Source: a virus. Taken from it: a stretch of DNA of 30,332 nucleotides. The translations under genes were made by a program, and so were the position numbers. The DNA lies in the IMG/VR virus record IMGVR_UViG_3300044712_000255, positions 1-30,332 of that record; one strand, written 5' to 3'. The notes below the pieces were generated by a model. That model was not told where the DNA came from. It did not search any database and was given only the letters and a program-made list of their open reading frames with translations. This document shows, one piece after another, positions 18,996-27,861 of the stretch; within the stretch, counting starts at the first letter, position 1, and each line of letters starts with the position of its first letter.

Positions 18996-19931
18996 ATGAA
19001 AAATAAACTAATCGCAGCTCTAGTAGCTATTACATTAACAGTACCAACAGCTGCAAATGCAGCTCTTCGATCATCTACAACTCCAACCCCAACGCTGGCA
19101 ATTCTTGATACAGCAATTGATGCAACAGTTCCAGAATTTGCTGGTAAGATTGTCCATGAGGTTTGTATTCTTGAATGGGACTCATGTCCAAATGGAAAGT
19201 CGTTCATGGAGGGTCCAGGATCTGGTCTAACATATCCAGCTAAGTTTGTTTCAAGCAAGACTTTTAACCATGGAACACAGATGGTTTCTGCAGCATTGAG
19301 AACTAACCCAAATATGAATATTGTATTCGTTAGAATTGCTGGTAATACTCCTACTGGAGTTCGACAGATTGCTTATGAGAAAACAGTATATCAGGCACTT
19401 CATTGGGTCTTAGCAAACGCCTCTAAGTATAATATCAAGGCGGTATCAATGTCTCAGGGACACCATAACCTTCTAAATTATGGTGCAGACTATTGTCCAA
19501 ATACACCAACAACTAAGACGGCAATAACCAACCTTAAGAATTTGGGTATTCCTACATTTTTTGCAGTAGGAAATGGTCGTGACTATAAGCGCATTGATTG
19601 GCCTTCATGCATTACAGAATCAATTGCAATCGGTGCAGTAGATCAGTATAATGAAATTGCAATCTATTCAAATGCAGATGCAGCAAGAACAGATTTCTAT
19701 GCTTTGGGTAATATGCGACTTAGCCTTCCTGGTGGTACAGAAACAAATGCTGCTGGAACATCAGTTTCTACACAAGTTGCTGCAGCACAATGGATTCAGG
19801 CATTGTCAGCAAAGCCTACATTAACCTATGATCAGCTTATTGCATTGTTTGATAAGACAGCTATTGCATCAAAGAATGCTTACGTATCTTACGGTAAGGT
19901 TATTAACGTGACTGGTGCTATCAATGGATAA
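18996..19931 (+). CDS. Secreted subtilisin-like serine protease (S8)
   Basis: A 311-residue exported protease. The first 22 residues are a signal peptide ending at an Ala-Asn-Ala site. The catalytic triad is visible: Asp38 in LAILDTAID, His92 in FNHGTQMVSA and Ser256 in NAAGTSVSTQ, with oxyanion Asn193 in FAVGNGRD. There is almost no propeptide between the signal peptide and the catalytic Asp, which is short for the family. Export would place it in the host envelope or medium, or it may mature virion proteins. It has a strong promoter of its own, and the next gene starts inside its last codons. Confidence 0.9.
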   Translation: MKNKLIAALVAITLTVPTAANAALRSSTTPTPTLAILDTAIDATVPEFAGKIVHEVCILEWDSCPNGKSFMEGPGSGLTYPAKFVSSKTFNHGTQMVSAALRTNPNMNIVFVRIAGNTPTGVRQIAYEKTVYQALHWVLANASKYNIKAVSMSQGHHNLLNYGADYCPNTPTTKTAITNLKNLGIPTFFAVGNGRDYKRIDWPSCITESIAIGAVDQYNEIAIYSNADAARTDFYALGNMRLSLPGGTETNAAGTSVSTQVAAAQWIQALSAKPTLTYDQLIALFDKTAIASKNAYVSYGKVINVTGAING

Positions 19932-20691: not shown

Positions 20692-21681
20692 ATGAACTCA
20701 TTTAAGAAAATCGCAGTAGGCGTAGTTGCAGCTATGTCTATCGCAACAATCGTAGCTACACCTGCTAGTGCAGCAACAACAACTTTAACAGTAGGCGGAT
20801 CGTCAGTTTCAACTGGCCTTGTTGCTTCAAATCCAGTTGTTTTGCCAGTCCCTGCAGACAACTCAGTTGATTCAGCTGATGCCCTAAAGATTGCTATCAC
20901 AGGACTTGATACAGGCACAGTAGTTTCAGCATCAGCAACAAATGCATCAATTGTTCCAGCATTGGCAACAGTTTCAGCACCAGTTTCTGCGTCAGTAGGA
21001 ACAGCAACACTTTCAGTTAATACAGGAACAGGCACAACAGCTGATTTCTATGTATTTACAAAGTCAGTCACCGCAGGTACAGTTGTAGTAACTATCGGTG
21101 GCAACACAACAACATATTACCTTAAGGGATCTGCAGGAGCAGCGTACAACCTTTCAGTTGTAGCACCTGATTCAGCAAATATCTCAACAGTAAATAAGGT
21201 TTACGCAAAGACAACAGATGTTTTTGGAAATCCAGTTGTGACAACAACACCAACATTGACAGCAATTAATGCTACAGTTGGATCTGTTTCTGTATCAGAT
21301 ACAGCAACAGGAACATTTGTTTTCGATTTAACAACACCAGCAACAGTTGGTCAGTCAGCTCTATCAGTTGCAATTTCAGCAACAGATGTTGTTGGTCTTC
21401 CAGCAGCAGTAAAGTCTGCTACAAAGTTTGTTGCGGTTATTAATCCAGCAGATGTACTAGCATCACTAAAGGCTGAGCTTGCAGCAGCACAGGCCGCTCT
21501 TACAGCAGAAAAAGCAGCGCATGCAGTAACTAAGGCAGCAGTCGATAAGGCAGCAGCAGATGCAGTTACAGCAAAAGCAGCAGCTGATCTTGCAGCAGCA
21601 GCTTACAAGGCAGAATACAATGTTCTTGCTAAGAAGTGGAATGCTAAGAATCCAAAGGCTAAGGTTGCTCTTAAGAAGTAA
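20692..21681 (+). CDS. Secreted Ala/Thr-rich surface-like protein
   Basis: A 329-residue protein with a signal peptide (NSFKKIAVGVVAAMSIATI... to TPASAA, cleavage near residue 28). Residues about 29-255 are beta-rich with Ig-like spacing and many Thr/Val/Ser; residues about 258-310 form an Ala/Lys coiled coil (LKAELAAAQAALTAEKAA). The end, KWNAKNPKAKVALKK, resembles tails of abundant secreted proteins of aquatic actinobacteria as I remember them. The gene uses far more GCA/ACA/GTT codons than its neighbours, pointing to host origin or very high expression. It could coat the cell or decorate virions. AAGGAGAA ribosome site; a strong terminator follows. Confidence 0.8.
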   Translation: MNSFKKIAVGVVAAMSIATIVATPASAATTTLTVGGSSVSTGLVASNPVVLPVPADNSVDSADALKIAITGLDTGTVVSASATNASIVPALATVSAPVSASVGTATLSVNTGTGTTADFYVFTKSVTAGTVVVTIGGNTTTYYLKGSAGAAYNLSVVAPDSANISTVNKVYAKTTDVFGNPVVTTTPTLTAINATVGSVSVSDTATGTFVFDLTTPATVGQSALSVAISATDVVGLPAAVKSATKFVAVINPADVLASLKAELAAAQAALTAEKAAHAVTKAAVDKAAADAVTAKAAADLAAAAYKAEYNVLAKKWNAKNPKAKVALKK

Positions 21682-21748: not shown

Positions 21749-21949
21749 ATGGAATCAACTAAAAGAACATTACTAAAAACATTAAGCTGGGAAACATTTC
21801 ATCTAGTAGGGGTAGCTGGAGTAATATACTTATTTACTGGAGAGTGGGAATATGCAAGCCTTGGAGCTTTGCTATATATTGCATGGGAGGCTTTAGGCTA
21901 TTTCTTGCATGAAAGAGTATGGGCCAAGTTTGGAAGTAAAGTAAAGTGA
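21749..21949 (+). CDS. DUF2061 family membrane protein (first copy)
   Basis: A 66-residue protein with the family pattern KRTLLKTLSWETFHLVGVAGVIYLFTG, then a second helix ALLYIAWEALGYFLHERVW. DUF2061 proteins are small two-helix membrane proteins of unknown role, common in aquatic bacteria and phages. A second, diverged copy lies about 4 kb downstream. It has its own leaderless promoter. Confidence 0.85.
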   Translation: MESTKRTLLKTLSWETFHLVGVAGVIYLFTGEWEYASLGALLYIAWEALGYFLHERVWAKFGSKVK

Positions 21950-22083
21950 ATGAATTTGAGTTATACAAACAAGCATTCAAGAATAATTTAGTAAAAGAAA
22001 TTCAAGATCTTGAATTCCCATATGAGTGGACATCAAAAGACATTGTTAGATTTATTATAAATAAAATCGAAAGCGGTCAATGA
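21946..22083 (+). CDS. 45-residue helical peptide (GTG start)
   Basis: A short protein: NEFELYKQAFKNNLVKEIQDLEFPYEWTSK..., helical and charged. GTG overlaps the DUF2061 stop by four bases (GTGA) and GGAAG upstream is a fair ribosome site. Its end overlaps the following small gene (ATGA). Function is unknown. Confidence 0.58.
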   Translation: MNEFELYKQAFKNNLVKEIQDLEFPYEWTSKDIVRFIINKIESGQ

Positions 22084-22202
22084 TATTGATAGATAAATGT
22101 GATATTGATGGATGCGAAAATGAGGCTGAAAGAATAACGACTTCAGAAACCAGATATATCTACATTTGTATAATTTGCTATAATAAAAAGTATAAGGTTT
22201 AA
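22080..22202 (+). CDS. 40-residue zinc-ribbon-like peptide
   Basis: A short protein with two Cys pairs: CDIDGC near residues 7-12 and CIIC at 30-33, a spacing suited to one zinc site. It is joined to the previous gene by ATGA overlap and ends one base before the radical SAM start. Role unknown. Confidence 0.6.
   Translation: MILIDKCDIDGCENEAERITTSETRYIYICIICYNKKYKV
22179..22184 (+). promoter_or_regulatory. Extended -10 element before radical SAM gene
   Basis: TTTGCTATAAT with hexamer at 22179-22184 inside the end of the zinc peptide gene. A start near 22191 would leave a leader of about 13 bases holding an AAGG ribosome site before ATG 22204. It could give the radical SAM operon its own transcript. 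Confidence 0.45.
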
Positions 22203-23193: not shown

Positions 23194-23265
23194 ATGTGCT
23201 GGTTATGTGGATGTGCAGACCATATAGGGCCTGGAAATGAAAAAGAGGATAAAGATGAAGAATGA
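23194..23265 (+). CDS. 23-residue MCxxCGC micro-protein
   Basis: A tiny gene starting directly after the radical SAM stop codon. The protein begins MCWLCGCADHIGPG and ends in a run of Glu, Asp and Lys. The N-terminal C-x2-C-G-C and the IGPG both recur in a 55-residue protein about 1.2 kb downstream, which argues against chance. The same N-terminal motif type, MCxxCGCG, binds nickel in the hydrogenase factor HypB, but no other HypB feature is present. It overlaps the PLP enzyme gene by 11 bases. A metal-binding peptide or a substrate of the radical SAM enzyme are the two main ideas. Confidence 0.6.
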   Translation: MCWLCGCADHIGPGNEKEDKDEE

Positions 23266-24301
23266 TACAAGCATGATATACATTGGTAGGCCAAAGGCTG
23301 GCCCAGATATAGGAATGAACACTCCAATTTCATTAAATTCAACATTGCATGCTGGTGGTGATATTGGATATGCCAGATATGGAAATCAGTCATGTGCTGA
23401 TTTAGAATCAGTTATAGAATCTTTAGAACACGGAAAAACATTGGCATTTTCTTCTGGAATGTCAGCGTTCAGTGCTATTGCATCAAATATTCCAAATGGA
23501 TCAATAATTGTTGCATCAGATCAAGGCTACGCTGGAATTACAGAAACGCTTAGAAGGATGCATGATGATGGCAAAATAGTTTTAAGGTTTGTCGATATAG
23601 CCAATACAGCAGAAGTTTTGCATAATATGAACGATGCATTTATGGTATGGATTGAATCTCCAACAAATCCACTTTTAAAGGTTGCAGATTTAAAAAGGAT
23701 TATTAGGTACGCAAAAGAGTCTAAAGTCTTAGTCGGAATTGATAATACATTTGCTACCCCATTAAGACAAATCCCTTTAGACTTAGGTGCTGATATATCT
23801 TTAAATTCTGTGACTAAGTATATGGCTGGTCATTCCGATGTTTTGGCTGGATCTGTTTCTACTAATAATAAGGTAATTTTTGACAAGATAGAGTTTACTA
23901 GAAAGATTACTGGAACTATCATTCAGCCATTTGAAGCCTACCTTGCTTTGAGGGGAATGAGAACGTTTGCTCTAAGATTTGAAAAAGCTGAATCTAATGC
24001 TAAGATATTAGTAGACCTATTAAGATCTCATGAATTAGTTACAAATGTATACTATCCAGGATTTAGTGGAGTTATATCATTTGAGATTAAGGGTGATGCT
24101 GAGCGGGCTGAAAGAGTATGCTCTTCCGCTAGACTAATATCAAATACAACTAGTCTGGGTGCCGTTGAGTCTACATGGGAAAGACGTAGAAGGTGGGCTT
24201 TAGAAAGCCATACTGTGCCAGATAATCTAATTAGACTTTCTGTTGGATGCGAGAATATAGACGATCTTTGGCCAGATATCAAGTACGCCCTAGAATCATA
24301 A
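23255..24301 (+). CDS. Cys/Met metabolism PLP-dependent enzyme (cystathionine lyase/synthase-like)
   Basis: A 348-residue fold-type I PLP enzyme. The marks are YARYGN near the N-terminus, FSSGMSAFSAI, the tyrosine segment DQGYAGITETL, WIESPTNPLLKV, GIDNTFATP and the PLP lysine Lys188 in SVTKYMAGHSDVLAGS. LGAVEST and RLSVGCE close the protein. Family members split or join cystathionine, methionine or homocysteine; it is slightly shorter than usual (about 380). I chose ATG 23255, with AGAGGA five bases upstream, over ATG 23237. It may release sulfide or reduced sulfur for the phage or host, or serve the nearby radical SAM reaction. Confidence 0.88.
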   Translation: MKNDTSMIYIGRPKAGPDIGMNTPISLNSTLHAGGDIGYARYGNQSCADLESVIESLEHGKTLAFSSGMSAFSAIASNIPNGSIIVASDQGYAGITETLRRMHDDGKIVLRFVDIANTAEVLHNMNDAFMVWIESPTNPLLKVADLKRIIRYAKESKVLVGIDNTFATPLRQIPLDLGADISLNSVTKYMAGHSDVLAGSVSTNNKVIFDKIEFTRKITGTIIQPFEAYLALRGMRTFALRFEKAESNAKILVDLLRSHELVTNVYYPGFSGVISFEIKGDAERAERVCSSARLISNTTSLGAVESTWERRRRWALESHTVPDNLIRLSVGCENIDDLWPDIKYALES

Positions 24302-24308
24302 TAAATGA

Positions 24309-24356
24309 TATAATAGTTATAGGTGGATCTAGACCACTAATAAAAACCTATAGGAG
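24309..24356 (+). promoter_or_regulatory. Promoter and structured leader of three-peptide operon
   Basis: TATAAT at 24309-24314. The leader contains nested inverted repeats: TATAGGT at 24318-24324 with ACCTATA at 24346-24352, and GTGG at 24323-24326 with CCAC at 24334-24337. The right outer arm touches the AGGAG ribosome site at 24352-24356, so folding could limit translation of the peptide starting at 24363. Since the left arm begins near the predicted start site, only part of it may be in the RNA. Confidence 0.55.
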
Positions 24357-24362
24357 AATAAT

Positions 24363-24476
24363 ATGACAACAAATAACGTACCTGCAGCAAACTATACAGA
24401 GCCTCCAAAGCCTGCATTTCCTGCAACAGATAAGTCATCACAAGACAGCGCAGGTCTTGGCAACGGCGGTAAGTAA
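24363..24476 (+). CDS. 37-residue Pro/Ala-rich peptide
   Basis: A short, unstructured-looking peptide: NNVPAANYTEPPKPAFPATD then SSQDSAGLGNGGK. AGGAG lies upstream within a structured leader. It is the first gene of a small operon of three peptides between its own promoter and a strong terminator, which implies deliberate expression. No known family. It could be a virion tail peptide or a precursor peptide; the glycine-rich end is notable. Confidence 0.58.
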   Translation: MTTNNVPAANYTEPPKPAFPATDKSSQDSAGLGNGGK

Positions 24477-24478
24477 TC

Positions 24479-24646
24479 ATGTGCGAGATGTGTGGATGCG
24501 GTAGCAAAGATGCATTCATGGGTGTAGAGATGCCCAACAGAAGCGTATATGATATTGGCCCTGGCCAAATGGAAACACCGATTATGTTCGGTACAGACTC
24601 AATGAACAATCTTGGTGTCTCAAAAACAGAAATGGATATGAATTAA
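24479..24646 (+). CDS. 55-residue MCxxCGC protein
   Basis: A Met-rich protein starting MCEMCGCGSKDAFMG, later YDIGPGQMETP, with about ten Met in 55 residues. The N-terminal motif and IGPG match the 23-residue peptide after the radical SAM gene. Three closely spaced Cys plus many Met suggest metal binding, perhaps copper, nickel or an Fe-S cluster. It begins two bases after the previous stop and its own stop overlaps the next start. No full family is recognised. Confidence 0.65.
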   Translation: MCEMCGCGSKDAFMGVEMPNRSVYDIGPGQMETPIMFGTDSMNNLGVSKTEMDMN

Positions 24647-24834
24647 TGTCAGATAATGGAACTGGAATGTCTTCTCCAGCCAACTCAGCTCCTAGTGGAG
24701 CTTTAACTTCGCAAGAGGTAGGAAGACGAAACCCTAAGCAGAAGTTTACTTCTGGTATCAAGATCGATACAAATAAGCATGGGATTCGTAGAGAAACACA
24801 ACTTGCACCAAAGAAGAGTGGGAAGAGAAAATAA
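24646..24834 (+). CDS. Small basic disordered protein
   Basis: A 62-residue protein: a Ser/Gly/Pro-rich first half (GTGMSSPANSAPSGAL) and a basic second half (RRNPKQKF, APKKSGKRK). It looks disordered and may bind nucleic acid or acidic surfaces. It is last in the three-peptide operon and is followed by a UUCG-loop terminator. Function is unknown. Confidence 0.65.
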   Translation: MSDNGTGMSSPANSAPSGALTSQEVGRRNPKQKFTSGIKIDTNKHGIRRETQLAPKKSGKRK

Positions 24835-24847
24835 TCTTATCCATAAC

Positions 24848-24871
24848 CAAATGGCCCTTCGGGGCCATTTG
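24848..24871 (+). terminator. Intrinsic terminator with TTCG loop
   Basis: CAAATGGCCC pairs perfectly with GGGCCATTTG around a TTCG tetraloop, a ten-base-pair stem with an extra-stable loop, followed by TATTTATAT. It ends the peptide operon. Confidence 0.92.
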
Positions 24872-24919: not shown

Positions 24920-25678
24920 ATGATTATTCAAATTATTGGTTTACCAGGTTCTGGGAAGACAGCATTAGCTAAAAGGTTAGCTGACAGAATTAATGCAATT
25001 CATCTTAATGGTGATGAGACTAGGGCTACTGTTAACTCAGACTTAGGATTTAGTATTGAAAGTAGAATTGAGCAGGCACGTAGGCTAGGAGAGCTTGCAA
25101 GACTTATTAATAAACAGGGTTATCATGTAGTAGTTGATTTCGTATGCCCAACAAAAGTAACACGTAACTCATTTGGTACACCTGATGTATTAATTTTTAT
25201 GGATACAATTGAGTCTGGAAGATTTAAAGATACAAATGATATGTTTGAAAAGCCAGAAAATGCAGATGAAGTATTTGTAAACCATGGACTAGATCCAGAT
25301 CAGAAGGCAAGATATATAATTAAGCAGTTTAATCTGCATGATTGGTATGAACCAACCACACTCATGCTTGGTAGATATCAGCCATGGCATGCTGGACACC
25401 ATGCATTATATAATGAGGCTGGCAAGCGAACAGAGCAGGTAGTTCTTGGAGTTAGAAGTACATATAATACTTCACCAAAGGACCCTCTTACATTTGAGCA
25501 GGTTAAGGTATTTATTGATCAAGATGAGCATATGAAGAATGCTATGGTAATTAAGATGCCTAATATTACCAATATTGTATATGGTCGTGATGTGGGATAT
25601 AAGATTGAGCAGGTAAAGTTAGGGGATGAGATTGAAGCTATTAGCGCTACTCAAAAACGTAAAGAGATGGGTCTATGA
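24920..25678 (+). CDS. APS-kinase-like / NMNAT-like nucleotidyltransferase fusion
   Basis: A 252-residue two-domain protein. Residues 1 to about 140: P-loop kinase with Gly7-LPGSGKT and the APS-kinase wording HLNGDETR, DLGFSIESRIEQARRLGELA and VVVDFVCPT. Residues about 148-252: a cytidylyl/NMN adenylyltransferase-type fold with MLGRYQPWHAGHHALY (His157-x-Gly-His160), IVYGRDVGY and the ISATQKRK segment near the end. APS kinase makes PAPS, the sulfate donor; a sulfotransferase-like gene lies 1.6 kb downstream. The second domain could make NAD or activate another phosphate compound. The kinase may also have a different substrate. This pairing is not one I know as a standard bifunctional enzyme. 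Confidence 0.82.
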   Translation: MIIQIIGLPGSGKTALAKRLADRINAIHLNGDETRATVNSDLGFSIESRIEQARRLGELARLINKQGYHVVVDFVCPTKVTRNSFGTPDVLIFMDTIESGRFKDTNDMFEKPENADEVFVNHGLDPDQKARYIIKQFNLHDWYEPTTLMLGRYQPWHAGHHALYNEAGKRTEQVVLGVRSTYNTSPKDPLTFEQVKVFIDQDEHMKNAMVIKMPNITNIVYGRDVGYKIEQVKLGDEIEAISATQKRKEMGL

Positions 25679-25947: not shown

Positions 25948-26626
25948 TGTATTAGATAAGGGTTATGTTAGATTAGTTGATACCATGGGAGACGATCTAG
26001 CAGTTGTTAATGCTGCTCGTGTTTCTTATGATAAAGAGTCTTATGAGTTTACAGATAAGGATAAGGGTCTGCTAAAATTTTTATGGAGAGAGGATCACAC
26101 CTCACCATTTAGACATGCCTCAGTTTCATTCGAGATATATGCCCCGTTATTTGTAGCAAGGCAGTGGTGGAAATATGCTGTTGCATCAACACATGTGGAT
26201 GACCAGAATGGCTGGAATGAGTCTTCTAGGCGGTATATCACGGAGGATGAAGAGTTTTATATACCTAGGGGTTCAGAATGGCGTTCAAAGCCTGAGAACT
26301 CAAAGCAGGGCTCAGGAGAGCCATTAGAGGATTCTGTAGGCGGATGGTTCACCAATAAACTATTTGATATTGCTGAAGAGGGCAATAAGCTTTACAAGGA
26401 GGCTTTAGAGGCTGGAATTGCACCAGAGCAGGCTAGATTATTCTTACCAGCATATGGAATGTATGTCAGATGGAGATGGACTACAAGCCTACACGGTCTA
26501 CTGCATTTCTTGGATCAAAGATTGAAGAACGATGCTCAGTCTGAGATTAGGGATTATGCTGAGGCTGTATTAGAATTAACTAAGGATAAGTTTCCAGAGA
26601 CATTTAAGGTTGTGTTTAATGGTTGA
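25940..26626 (+). CDS. thyX: Flavin-dependent thymidylate synthase ThyX
   Basis: A 228-residue ThyX enzyme making dTMP from dUMP with FAD and methylene-THF. HTSPFRHASVSFEI, the FVARQWW segment, NESSRRYI and the C-terminal FLDQRLKNDAQSEIRDYA match the family. The classical RHR-x7-S signature is altered: after RQWW comes KYAVAS, and about nine residues separate it from NESSRRY, an insertion form I associate with some phage and cyanobacterial ThyX. The TTG at 25940 is chosen for GGGGAAG five bases upstream; the longer ATG start at 25895 lies well inside the upstream gene. ThyX is the usual thymidylate enzyme of actinobacteria and their phages. Confidence 0.92.
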   Translation: MINVLDKGYVRLVDTMGDDLAVVNAARVSYDKESYEFTDKDKGLLKFLWREDHTSPFRHASVSFEIYAPLFVARQWWKYAVASTHVDDQNGWNESSRRYITEDEEFYIPRGSEWRSKPENSKQGSGEPLEDSVGGWFTNKLFDIAEEGNKLYKEALEAGIAPEQARLFLPAYGMYVRWRWTTSLHGLLHFLDQRLKNDAQSEIRDYAEAVLELTKDKFPETFKVVFNG

Positions 26627-26729
26627 TATTCCAGCTAAGCAATGTTTTTGTGGAAGATCTGCGTCATTTCCATACTGTGATGGCACACATAAAATAAAAA
26701 AGGAAAAAGATGAAGAAAAATCTGAGTAA
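26619..26729 (+). CDS. 36-residue CDGSH iron-sulfur micro-protein
   Basis: A short gene overlapping the ThyX stop. The protein holds a full CDGSH-type motif, CFCGRSASFPYCDGTH: Cys-x-Cys-x2-Ser-x3-Pro-x-Cys-Asp-Gly-Thr-His, which ligates a [2Fe-2S] cluster with three Cys and one His in mitoNEET-like proteins. At 36 residues it is near the minimum for this fold. A redox or Fe-S transfer role is inferred. Confidence 0.75.
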   Translation: MVDIPAKQCFCGRSASFPYCDGTHKIKKEKDEEKSE

Positions 26730-27276: not shown

Positions 27277-27861
27277 ATGAAGATATTTGGTGTAAGTCTA
27301 GGTAGGAATGGAACGCAGTCTCTAAGCAAGTTCTTGAGACAGCAGGGGTTTAGTGTAACTCATTTCTATAACTATAAGCTAATACCATTGGGCCAGTTTG
27401 AAGAAAGTTTGGACGGGATCTTAAAGCATTTTGACAGTATCCCAGATACAGATGCCTATATAGATATACCAACTTGCTTAGTCTATGATGTAATGCATGA
27501 TAGATTCCCTGATGCTAAGTTTATTAATATAGTTAGGCCAATAGATGACTGGATTGCGTCTATGGAAAAGATGAATGGTTTGCATGGTCATGATGGTGAT
27601 CCTTATGCATTTGAAGAGGTATATTGCAATTTTTATGAAAAGACTGAAAAGAAAAAGATTCAGGATTTGACTAAAGACGAACTTAGATTTATTGGAATGT
27701 ATCATTTAACTAAGGCTCGTGATTTCTTTAAAGATAAAGATAATTATCTAGAGATATCCTTGCATGACCCAGAAATTGCTAGTAAAATAAGGGACTTCGT
27801 TGGAGGAACAGTAAACTGCGAATTCCCATGGACAGATATAGCTGGAGGAAGACCCGAATGA
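27277..27861 (+). CDS. Sulfotransferase-like protein
   Basis: A 194-residue P-loop-type protein. GVSLGRNGTQSLSKFL matches the PAPS 5'-phosphosulfate loop of the Sulfotransfer_4 type (G-x-x-R-T/N-G-T-x-S-L), followed by HFDSIPDTDAYIDIP and FPDAKFINIVRPIDDWIASM, where the R-x-x-D-x-W-x-x-S segment contacts the 3'-phosphate. It starts immediately after GroES. The substrate could be a glycan, lipid or peptide. The APS-kinase-like fusion upstream could provide PAPS. It is somewhat short for the family, and a kinase-like use of the fold cannot be excluded. Confidence 0.8.
   Translation: MKIFGVSLGRNGTQSLSKFLRQQGFSVTHFYNYKLIPLGQFEESLDGILKHFDSIPDTDAYIDIPTCLVYDVMHDRFPDAKFINIVRPIDDWIASMEKMNGLHGHDGDPYAFEEVYCNFYEKTEKKKIQDLTKDELRFIGMYHLTKARDFFKDKDNYLEISLHDPEIASKIRDFVGGTVNCEFPWTDIAGGRPE

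Follow-up and report, generated by a model that had tools for sequence, protein, structure and literature searches.

Uncultured actinobacterial viruses carry a movable set of genes in which a radical SAM enzyme (rSAM) is almost always followed by a tiny cysteine-rich protein with the start MCWxCGC, often together with a vitamin-B6 (PLP) enzyme. The set is described here from a 30,332-base virus fragment, all of which is referred to as the window (Table 1). The 23-aa micro-protein, mP1, is a dedicated partner of the rSAM, and the two make up a real enzyme-and-micro-protein system, as yet undescribed. By analogy with pairs such as PqqA/PqqE, the most likely reading, to which we would give an even chance, is that mP1 is a peptide substrate or carrier for the rSAM. 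A second micro-protein nearby, mP2, is not linked to the rSAM; it is a member of a broad viral group that has the MCxxCGC head alone in common. The terminase of the window is 62% identical to those of Streptomyces phages of the Stanwilliamsviridae and WhiB is present in nine of ten large related contigs, and the source is therefore an actinobacteriophage. A freshwater host is plausible.

Table 1. Features of the locus and its surroundings, in their order along the window
Feature	Position	Strand	Remarks
Subtilase; low-complexity protein with signal-peptide-like start (MNSFKKIAVGVVAAMSIATIVATPASA)	18996..19931; 20692..21681		also in syntenic loci
DUF2061 membrane protein	21749..21949	+	Pfam PF09834 4e-12; backbone gene that flanks the rSAM cassette, and the indel, on the left
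45-aa ORF			
40-aa C-x4-C ... C-x2-C protein	22080..22202	+	just 5' of rSAM; backbone gene, exists without rSAM too
Radical SAM/SPASM (twitch-like) enzyme, 329 aa	22204..23193	+	Pfam Radical_SAM 6e-12, SPASM 8e-12, above cutoff
mP1, 23-aa micro-protein MCWLCGCADHIGPGNEKEDKDEE	23194..23265	+	immediately 3' of the rSAM stop; kept with rSAM in 46/46 contigs
Cystathionine gamma-lyase/synthase-like PLP enzyme, 354 aa	23237..24301	+	Pfam Cys_Met_Meta_PP 9e-82; start overlaps mP1
TATAAT -10-like element (extended TGATATAAT, preceding TG)	24309..24314	+	5' of the p37-mP2-p62 operon
AGGAG ribosome site of p37	24352..24356	+	
p37, small low-complexity protein	24363..24476	+	first in the mP2 operon; conserved beside mP2 whether rSAM is there or not
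mP2, 55-aa micro-protein MCEMCGCGSKDAFMGVE... (start MCEMCGCGSKDAFMGVEMPNRSVYDIGPGQ...)	24479..24646	+	relatives in 15 and 55 viral loci, mostly without rSAM
p62, small protein with basic C-terminus	24646..24834	+	constant 3' neighbour of mP2
Intrinsic-terminator-like hairpin, 10 pairs	24848..24871	+	closes the p37-mP2-p62 operon
APS-kinase-like kinase + NMNAT-like nucleotidyltransferase fusion	24920..25678		
DUF2061			
ThyX			
36-aa mini CDGSH iron-sulfur protein	26619..26729		directly 3' of ThyX; Pfam zf-CDGSH 1.5e-7
Sulfotransferase-like protein	27277..27861		Sulfotransfer_4 2e-15

The rSAM belongs to the SPASM/twitch part of the radical SAM superfamily, having both the CxxxCxxC motif (C13, C17, C20) and C-terminal auxiliary-cluster cysteines (C255, C280, C281, C319, C322), all of which are invariant in 27 rSAM sequences. 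There is one C...C(C)...CxxC auxiliary set, as in twitch enzymes. The AF2 model has a pLDDT of 85, and its nearest solved fold is BtrN (Z 19.2), followed by SuiB (17.2), SkfB (16.8), anSME (16.6), ChlB (16.2) and EpeE (13.8); profile comparison likewise matches BtrN (8e-14) and YydG/EpeE (2e-5). Assignment as a prokaryotic viperin (pVip) was rejected, the partial matches to the core reaching 26 bits where NCBIfam sets a cutoff of 180, and 31 bits in PADLOC. Close cellular relatives were not found: a genome scan of 84,980 species of bacteria and archaea with the rSAM alignment gave three relatives of 21-28% identity, the scan using two short exact patterns that more distant relatives can escape. 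Several distant viral relatives of the rSAM adjoin genes that look, from their sequences, glycosyltransferase-like.

The association of mP1 with the rSAM is nearly without exception. Scanning with an mP1 alignment, independently of the rSAM, produced 60 raw pattern matches; 46 viral contigs were confirmed by tblastn, the 14 unconfirmed matches being left out, and all 46 carry an rSAM 60-84% identical to that of the window. In these contigs mP1 is directly 3' of the rSAM gene or the order is rSAM-PLP-mP1. After merging of overlapping loci, mP1 is present in 29 of 30 non-redundant groups of close rSAMs, the exception being L031 (L numbers denote the compared loci, most of which are contig fragments), where a decayed mP1 keeps the tail and has lost the MCW head. 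The gap from the rSAM stop to mP1 is -1 to +6 nt in most distinct rSAM sequences of at least 60% identity, and in the rest mP1 is 3' of the PLP gene. In the window the junction reads TAG ATG, with a gap of zero, and the 3' end of mP1 overlaps the PLP start, in agreement with the earlier note, which had placed the first micro-protein between a radical SAM gene and a Cys/Met PLP gene with overlapping frames. Translation of the rSAM and mP1 is probably coupled. When the natural read-through of rSAM, stop and mP1 was modelled by AF2 with the TAG read as Q, mP1 was left unplaced, with a pLDDT of 31-42. Neither mP1 nor any MC..CG peptide accompanies distant rSAMs of 35-47% identity (0 of 31 groups), and because these enzymes work without mP1 the catalytic core has no intrinsic need of it.

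The set is mobile and varies in its third and fourth members. A clean indel separates L005 from L006, loci of related phages: where the one has rSAM-mP1-PLP (about 2.15 kb) the other has 58 bp, and the flanks are 90% and 97% identical. Among the 30 groups with a close rSAM, the PLP enzyme is found in 21 and a 2OG-Fe(II) oxygenase in nine, so that rSAM-mP1 is a mobile phage cassette with the PLP gene in most copies and the oxygenase in some. No instance of mP1, the close PLP enzyme or the oxygenase without the rSAM was seen among the merged loci, and an independent alignment-based scan for the PLP enzyme gave 27 contigs at 60% identity or more, every one with both rSAM and mP1.

The PLP enzyme itself is a full-family match to PF01053 (275 bits against a cutoff of 27). 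Its PLP-lysine motif (TKYMAGHSD) and the region that binds the carboxylate (LIRLSVGCE) can be aligned with those of cystathionine gamma-lyase. As the catalytic and carboxylate motifs are kept, the enzyme probably handles an amino acid tied to the rSAM product, and retention of the carboxylate-binding arginine region suggests that the amino acid would be a free one, not a residue inside a peptide. It differs from the known cystathionine gamma-lyases and gamma-synthases in falling below the listed NCBIfam equivalog cutoffs, and relatives of at least 60% identity are found only beside rSAM and mP1.

Both micro-proteins named in the earlier note are conserved genes under purifying selection. For mP1 the selection is strong, with a pN/pS of 0.10 (pS 0.84 and pN 0.086 in the head; 31 distinct sequences); for mP2 the ratio is 0.175 over the first 14 codons (31 distinct sequences). 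Neither has a Pfam hit, and scans with Pfam and PHROG gave no name to either. The invariant columns of the mP1 alignment are M1, C2, W3, C5, G6, C7, A8, H10 and G12. W3 and the ADHxGxGN stretch are particular to mP1, and MCxxCGC is common also to peptides that live without an rSAM.

The tail of mP1 has a different explanation. In most relatives the mP1 stop is preceded, at a distance of 16 bases (37 in L103), by a TATAAT that encodes the 'NDII/NAII/DGII' tail; the relatives in question are those in which mP1 directly precedes the next operon with no PLP gene between. The NDII tail was rejected as a protein motif, the embedded -10 promoter element being sufficient to explain its conservation, and with the tail best taken as promoter DNA, conservation of the protein itself comes down to MCW[ILM]CGCADH[VI]G[PL]GN. 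The -10-like element inside the coding tail is kept where the cassette is absent, an instance of promoter-driven conservation of a peptide tail. An embedded promoter would also suit the idea that mP1 is a mere short ORF for translation coupling or regulation, conserved because of DNA or RNA signals. We consider this very improbable. Conservation at synonymous sites in the head would be expected and is not seen, the contrast of pS with pN there is a protein-level constraint, and in the window and the other copies with the PLP gene directly 3' the promoter is outside mP1 and the head is still intact.

A methionine preceding cysteine is normally removed. Loss of Met1 from mP1 would leave NH2-Cys-Trp-x-Cys-Gly-Cys-Ala-Asp-His, an N-terminus that may form a three-thiolate site, completed by the amine or the histidine, for a soft metal or an Fe-S cluster.

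The earlier note had likened the heads of the two micro-proteins to the nickel-binding N-terminus of HypB, and the likeness is apt. M1, C2, C5, G6 and C7 are invariant in the alignments of both mP1 and mP2, and Cys2, Cys5 and Cys7 are, with the N-terminal amine, the ligands through which E. coli HypB binds Ni(II) in a high-affinity, sub-picomolar site (PMC7055735). All 16 of 16 mP1 members match the NCBIfam model HypB_prefix_1 weakly, the best at 19.5 bits (E 0.0019), below the curated cutoff of 30 bits, and matches to HypB_prefix_2 are also below cutoff. Unlike HypB, the micro-proteins stand free, ending at 23 and 55 aa with no GTPase domain, and no hydrogenase genes were noted in the window. 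As the head matches the Ni(II) site of HypB, metal or Fe-S binding is its most economical property, and MCxxCGC is probably, on this analogy, a soft-metal- or Fe-S-binding head.

How much else mP1 and mP2 share is limited. A downstream IGPG, which had been proposed as a second common motif, was rejected: the relatives of mP1 often have VGLGN, with leucine for proline, in those of mP2 the GPG is replaced by GATG or GPS, and the motif is missing from other MCxxCGC paralogues. Since IGPG varies in the relatives of both families, only the N-terminal MCxxCGC is shared. Within the window mP1 and mP2 are the sole matches to ATG-Cys-x-x-Cys-Gly-Cys, none arising in 100 shuffles. Ten related contigs, 68-120 kb in length, have the pattern at this locus alone, and none of them has a reversed control pattern. 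The suggestion that the micro-proteins are substrates or cofactor carriers for the rSAM holds as a live reading for mP1, which is found only with the close rSAM clade and directly 3' of the rSAM or PLP gene, but not for mP2. The mP2a family occurs in 36 non-redundant groups without the rSAM against six with it, so that the motif peptide lives mostly apart from the rSAM and PLP genes, an outcome that the earlier note had named as refuting its proposal. Four phage contigs of 105-113 kb encode mP2 and lack the rSAM over their whole length. For these reasons mP2 was rejected as an rSAM partner. The TATAAT element 5' of p37 is likewise found in phages without the rSAM.

mP2 has several paralogues associated with it, namely mP2b (MCVECGCESVGS), which recurs in L213, a locus that gave no rSAM, mP3 (MCKDCGCG) and mP4 (MCKxCGxCSKEH, 3' of p62). 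Values of pN/pS are 0.18 for mP2a, 0.28 for mP4 and 0.37 for mP2b. In L109 (5088-5177) and its relatives mP4 is directly 3' of p62, is 27-29 aa long, follows the pattern MCKxCGxCSKEHxxxIDDxVDxxLD and has invariant C2, C5, C8 and H12.

The class extends well beyond these loci. A collection-wide scan for a ribosome site followed by MCxxCGC gave at least 120 viral stretches, against four for the permuted control MCxxGCC. Among the matches listed, 77 of the 83 closed ORFs are of 75 aa or less (median 44), and those matches (including L192-L271) sort into roughly 21 crude clusters, for which no common feature is evident other than the head behind its strong ribosome site. The head also forms the N-terminal extension, MC[NT][ST]CGC, of a 238-aa 2OG-Fe(II) oxygenase in L032 (4515-5231) and L107 (1848-2564), the orthologues in L018 and L100 being without it. 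Recurrence on unrelated short viral proteins and fusion to an oxygenase argue for a role of the head that does not depend on the rSAM. A HypB-like nickel-site head on so many unrelated micro-proteins raises the prospect that viruses own micro-scale metal-handling parts. Among deposited phages, tblastn searches with the rSAM, mP2 and three micro-proteins of the census gave no convincing match (one at 36% identity, E=1), and no MCxxCG ORF lies within the 42 kb surrounding the terminase of Gilson, a stanwilliamsvirid in which that enzyme is 62% identical to its counterpart in the window.

The rSAM-independent occurrence of the head, most simply a matter of metal binding, bears on what mP1 does for its enzyme. 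It might be an accessory metallo-peptide, a phage-encoded mini-chaperone or mini-ferredoxin that supplies the rSAM with iron, electrons or an Fe-S cluster, the enzyme's own substrate being a sugar or other small molecule. We rank this next after the peptide-substrate reading, as a less probable but serious alternative. The fusion of the head to an oxygenase would fit it, as would the nearest fold, BtrN being a twitch aminocyclitol dehydrogenase, and the glycosyltransferase-like neighbours of several distant rSAMs. That BtrN acts on a small aminocyclitol and not on a peptide is indeed the counterpoint to mP1 as a substrate. Three cysteines alone, however, do not make a classical ferredoxin site, the additional invariant W3, H10 and G12 are typical of specific recognition, and distant rSAMs manage without any mP1.

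For mP1 as substrate or carrier the closest parallels are the RiPP radical SAM systems, including PqqA/PqqE of PQQ, MftA/MftC of mycofactocin, YydF/YydG of the epipeptides and the sactipeptides. In these too a short conserved peptide gene abuts an rSAM with a C-terminal auxiliary-cluster domain, a juxtaposition seen here in 46/46 contigs and 29/30 groups, and the fold of the rSAM is similar to those of SuiB, SkfB, EpeE and ChlB. The differences are that modification of mP1 is putative, that the N-terminus of the peptide is its conserved part, that the partner is a cystathionine-lyase-like PLP enzyme and that the genes are phage-encoded. In addition, Pfam found no RRE/PqqD peptide-recognition domain in the rSAM; some maturases are also without one, and the neighbouring genes were scanned in part. 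BtrN and the twitch dehydrogenases resemble the rSAM in profile, fold and the single auxiliary set but are 16-24% identical in structural alignments, and we know of no micro-protein tied to BtrN. The set thus works like known kinds, with a HypB-type metal head and an rSAM plus short partner, yet falls within the full definition of no family. No description of the rSAM, mP1 and PLP set was found in the open-licence literature, whether on phage microproteins, on CXXCGC or on the radical SAM and RiPP systems of phages.

If mP1 is the substrate or carrier, the rSAM most likely modifies it, or takes it as a carrier peptide, and the PLP enzyme would act on a related amino-acid substrate. A broader proposal, which we advance only tentatively, is that micro-metalloproteins with an MCxxCGC head make up a large viral class, so far undescribed, and that one actinophage lineage has evolved a dedicated rSAM-PLP(-2OG oxygenase) cassette by which mP1 becomes a modified peptide serving as cofactor or carrier. 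The cassette would then be a RiPP-like cofactor pathway encoded by a phage, for which close cellular relatives were not found. Few uncharacterised phage rSAM genes offer so much: this one is tied to a specific partner of 23-41 aa, which can be made synthetically for in vitro tests.

A virion or secreted role for the micro-proteins, also raised in the earlier note, is possible. Among the matches listed, the neighbours of MCxxCGC micro-proteins include portal/terminase, major head protein, HslV-like peptidase and tail-fibre genes. Some micro-proteins are directly 3' of the portal gene, by the HslV-like peptidase or near major head and tail-fibre genes, and an HslV-like gene lies a few kb 5' of the mP2 locus. 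They could be virion or morphogenesis peptides that use the cysteine head to hold a structural metal, or to make disulfides, in the particle, the rSAM and PLP enzymes modifying mP1 or some other virion component. This we think unlikely, as the actinophage locus is in an accessory region, some 15-20 kb from the terminase in the window, with no adjoining capsid or tail gene recognised. The HslV-like peptidase recurs in L202 (3077-3637), 3 nt 5' of the micro-protein, and in L003 (2325-2879) and syntenic actinophage loci, a few kb 5'.

The accessory region around the locus in actinophages contains secreted-type proteins, DUF2061, ThyX and NMNAT-like genes. The subtilase and the low-complexity protein in Table 1 are conserved 5' of the locus. 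The kinase-nucleotidyltransferase fusion is possibly a NadR-like NAD enzyme with the domain order reversed. An ORF similar to the sulfotransferase-like protein is found in L018 near 12298, and the mini CDGSH protein is a second tiny Fe-S protein in the same phage.
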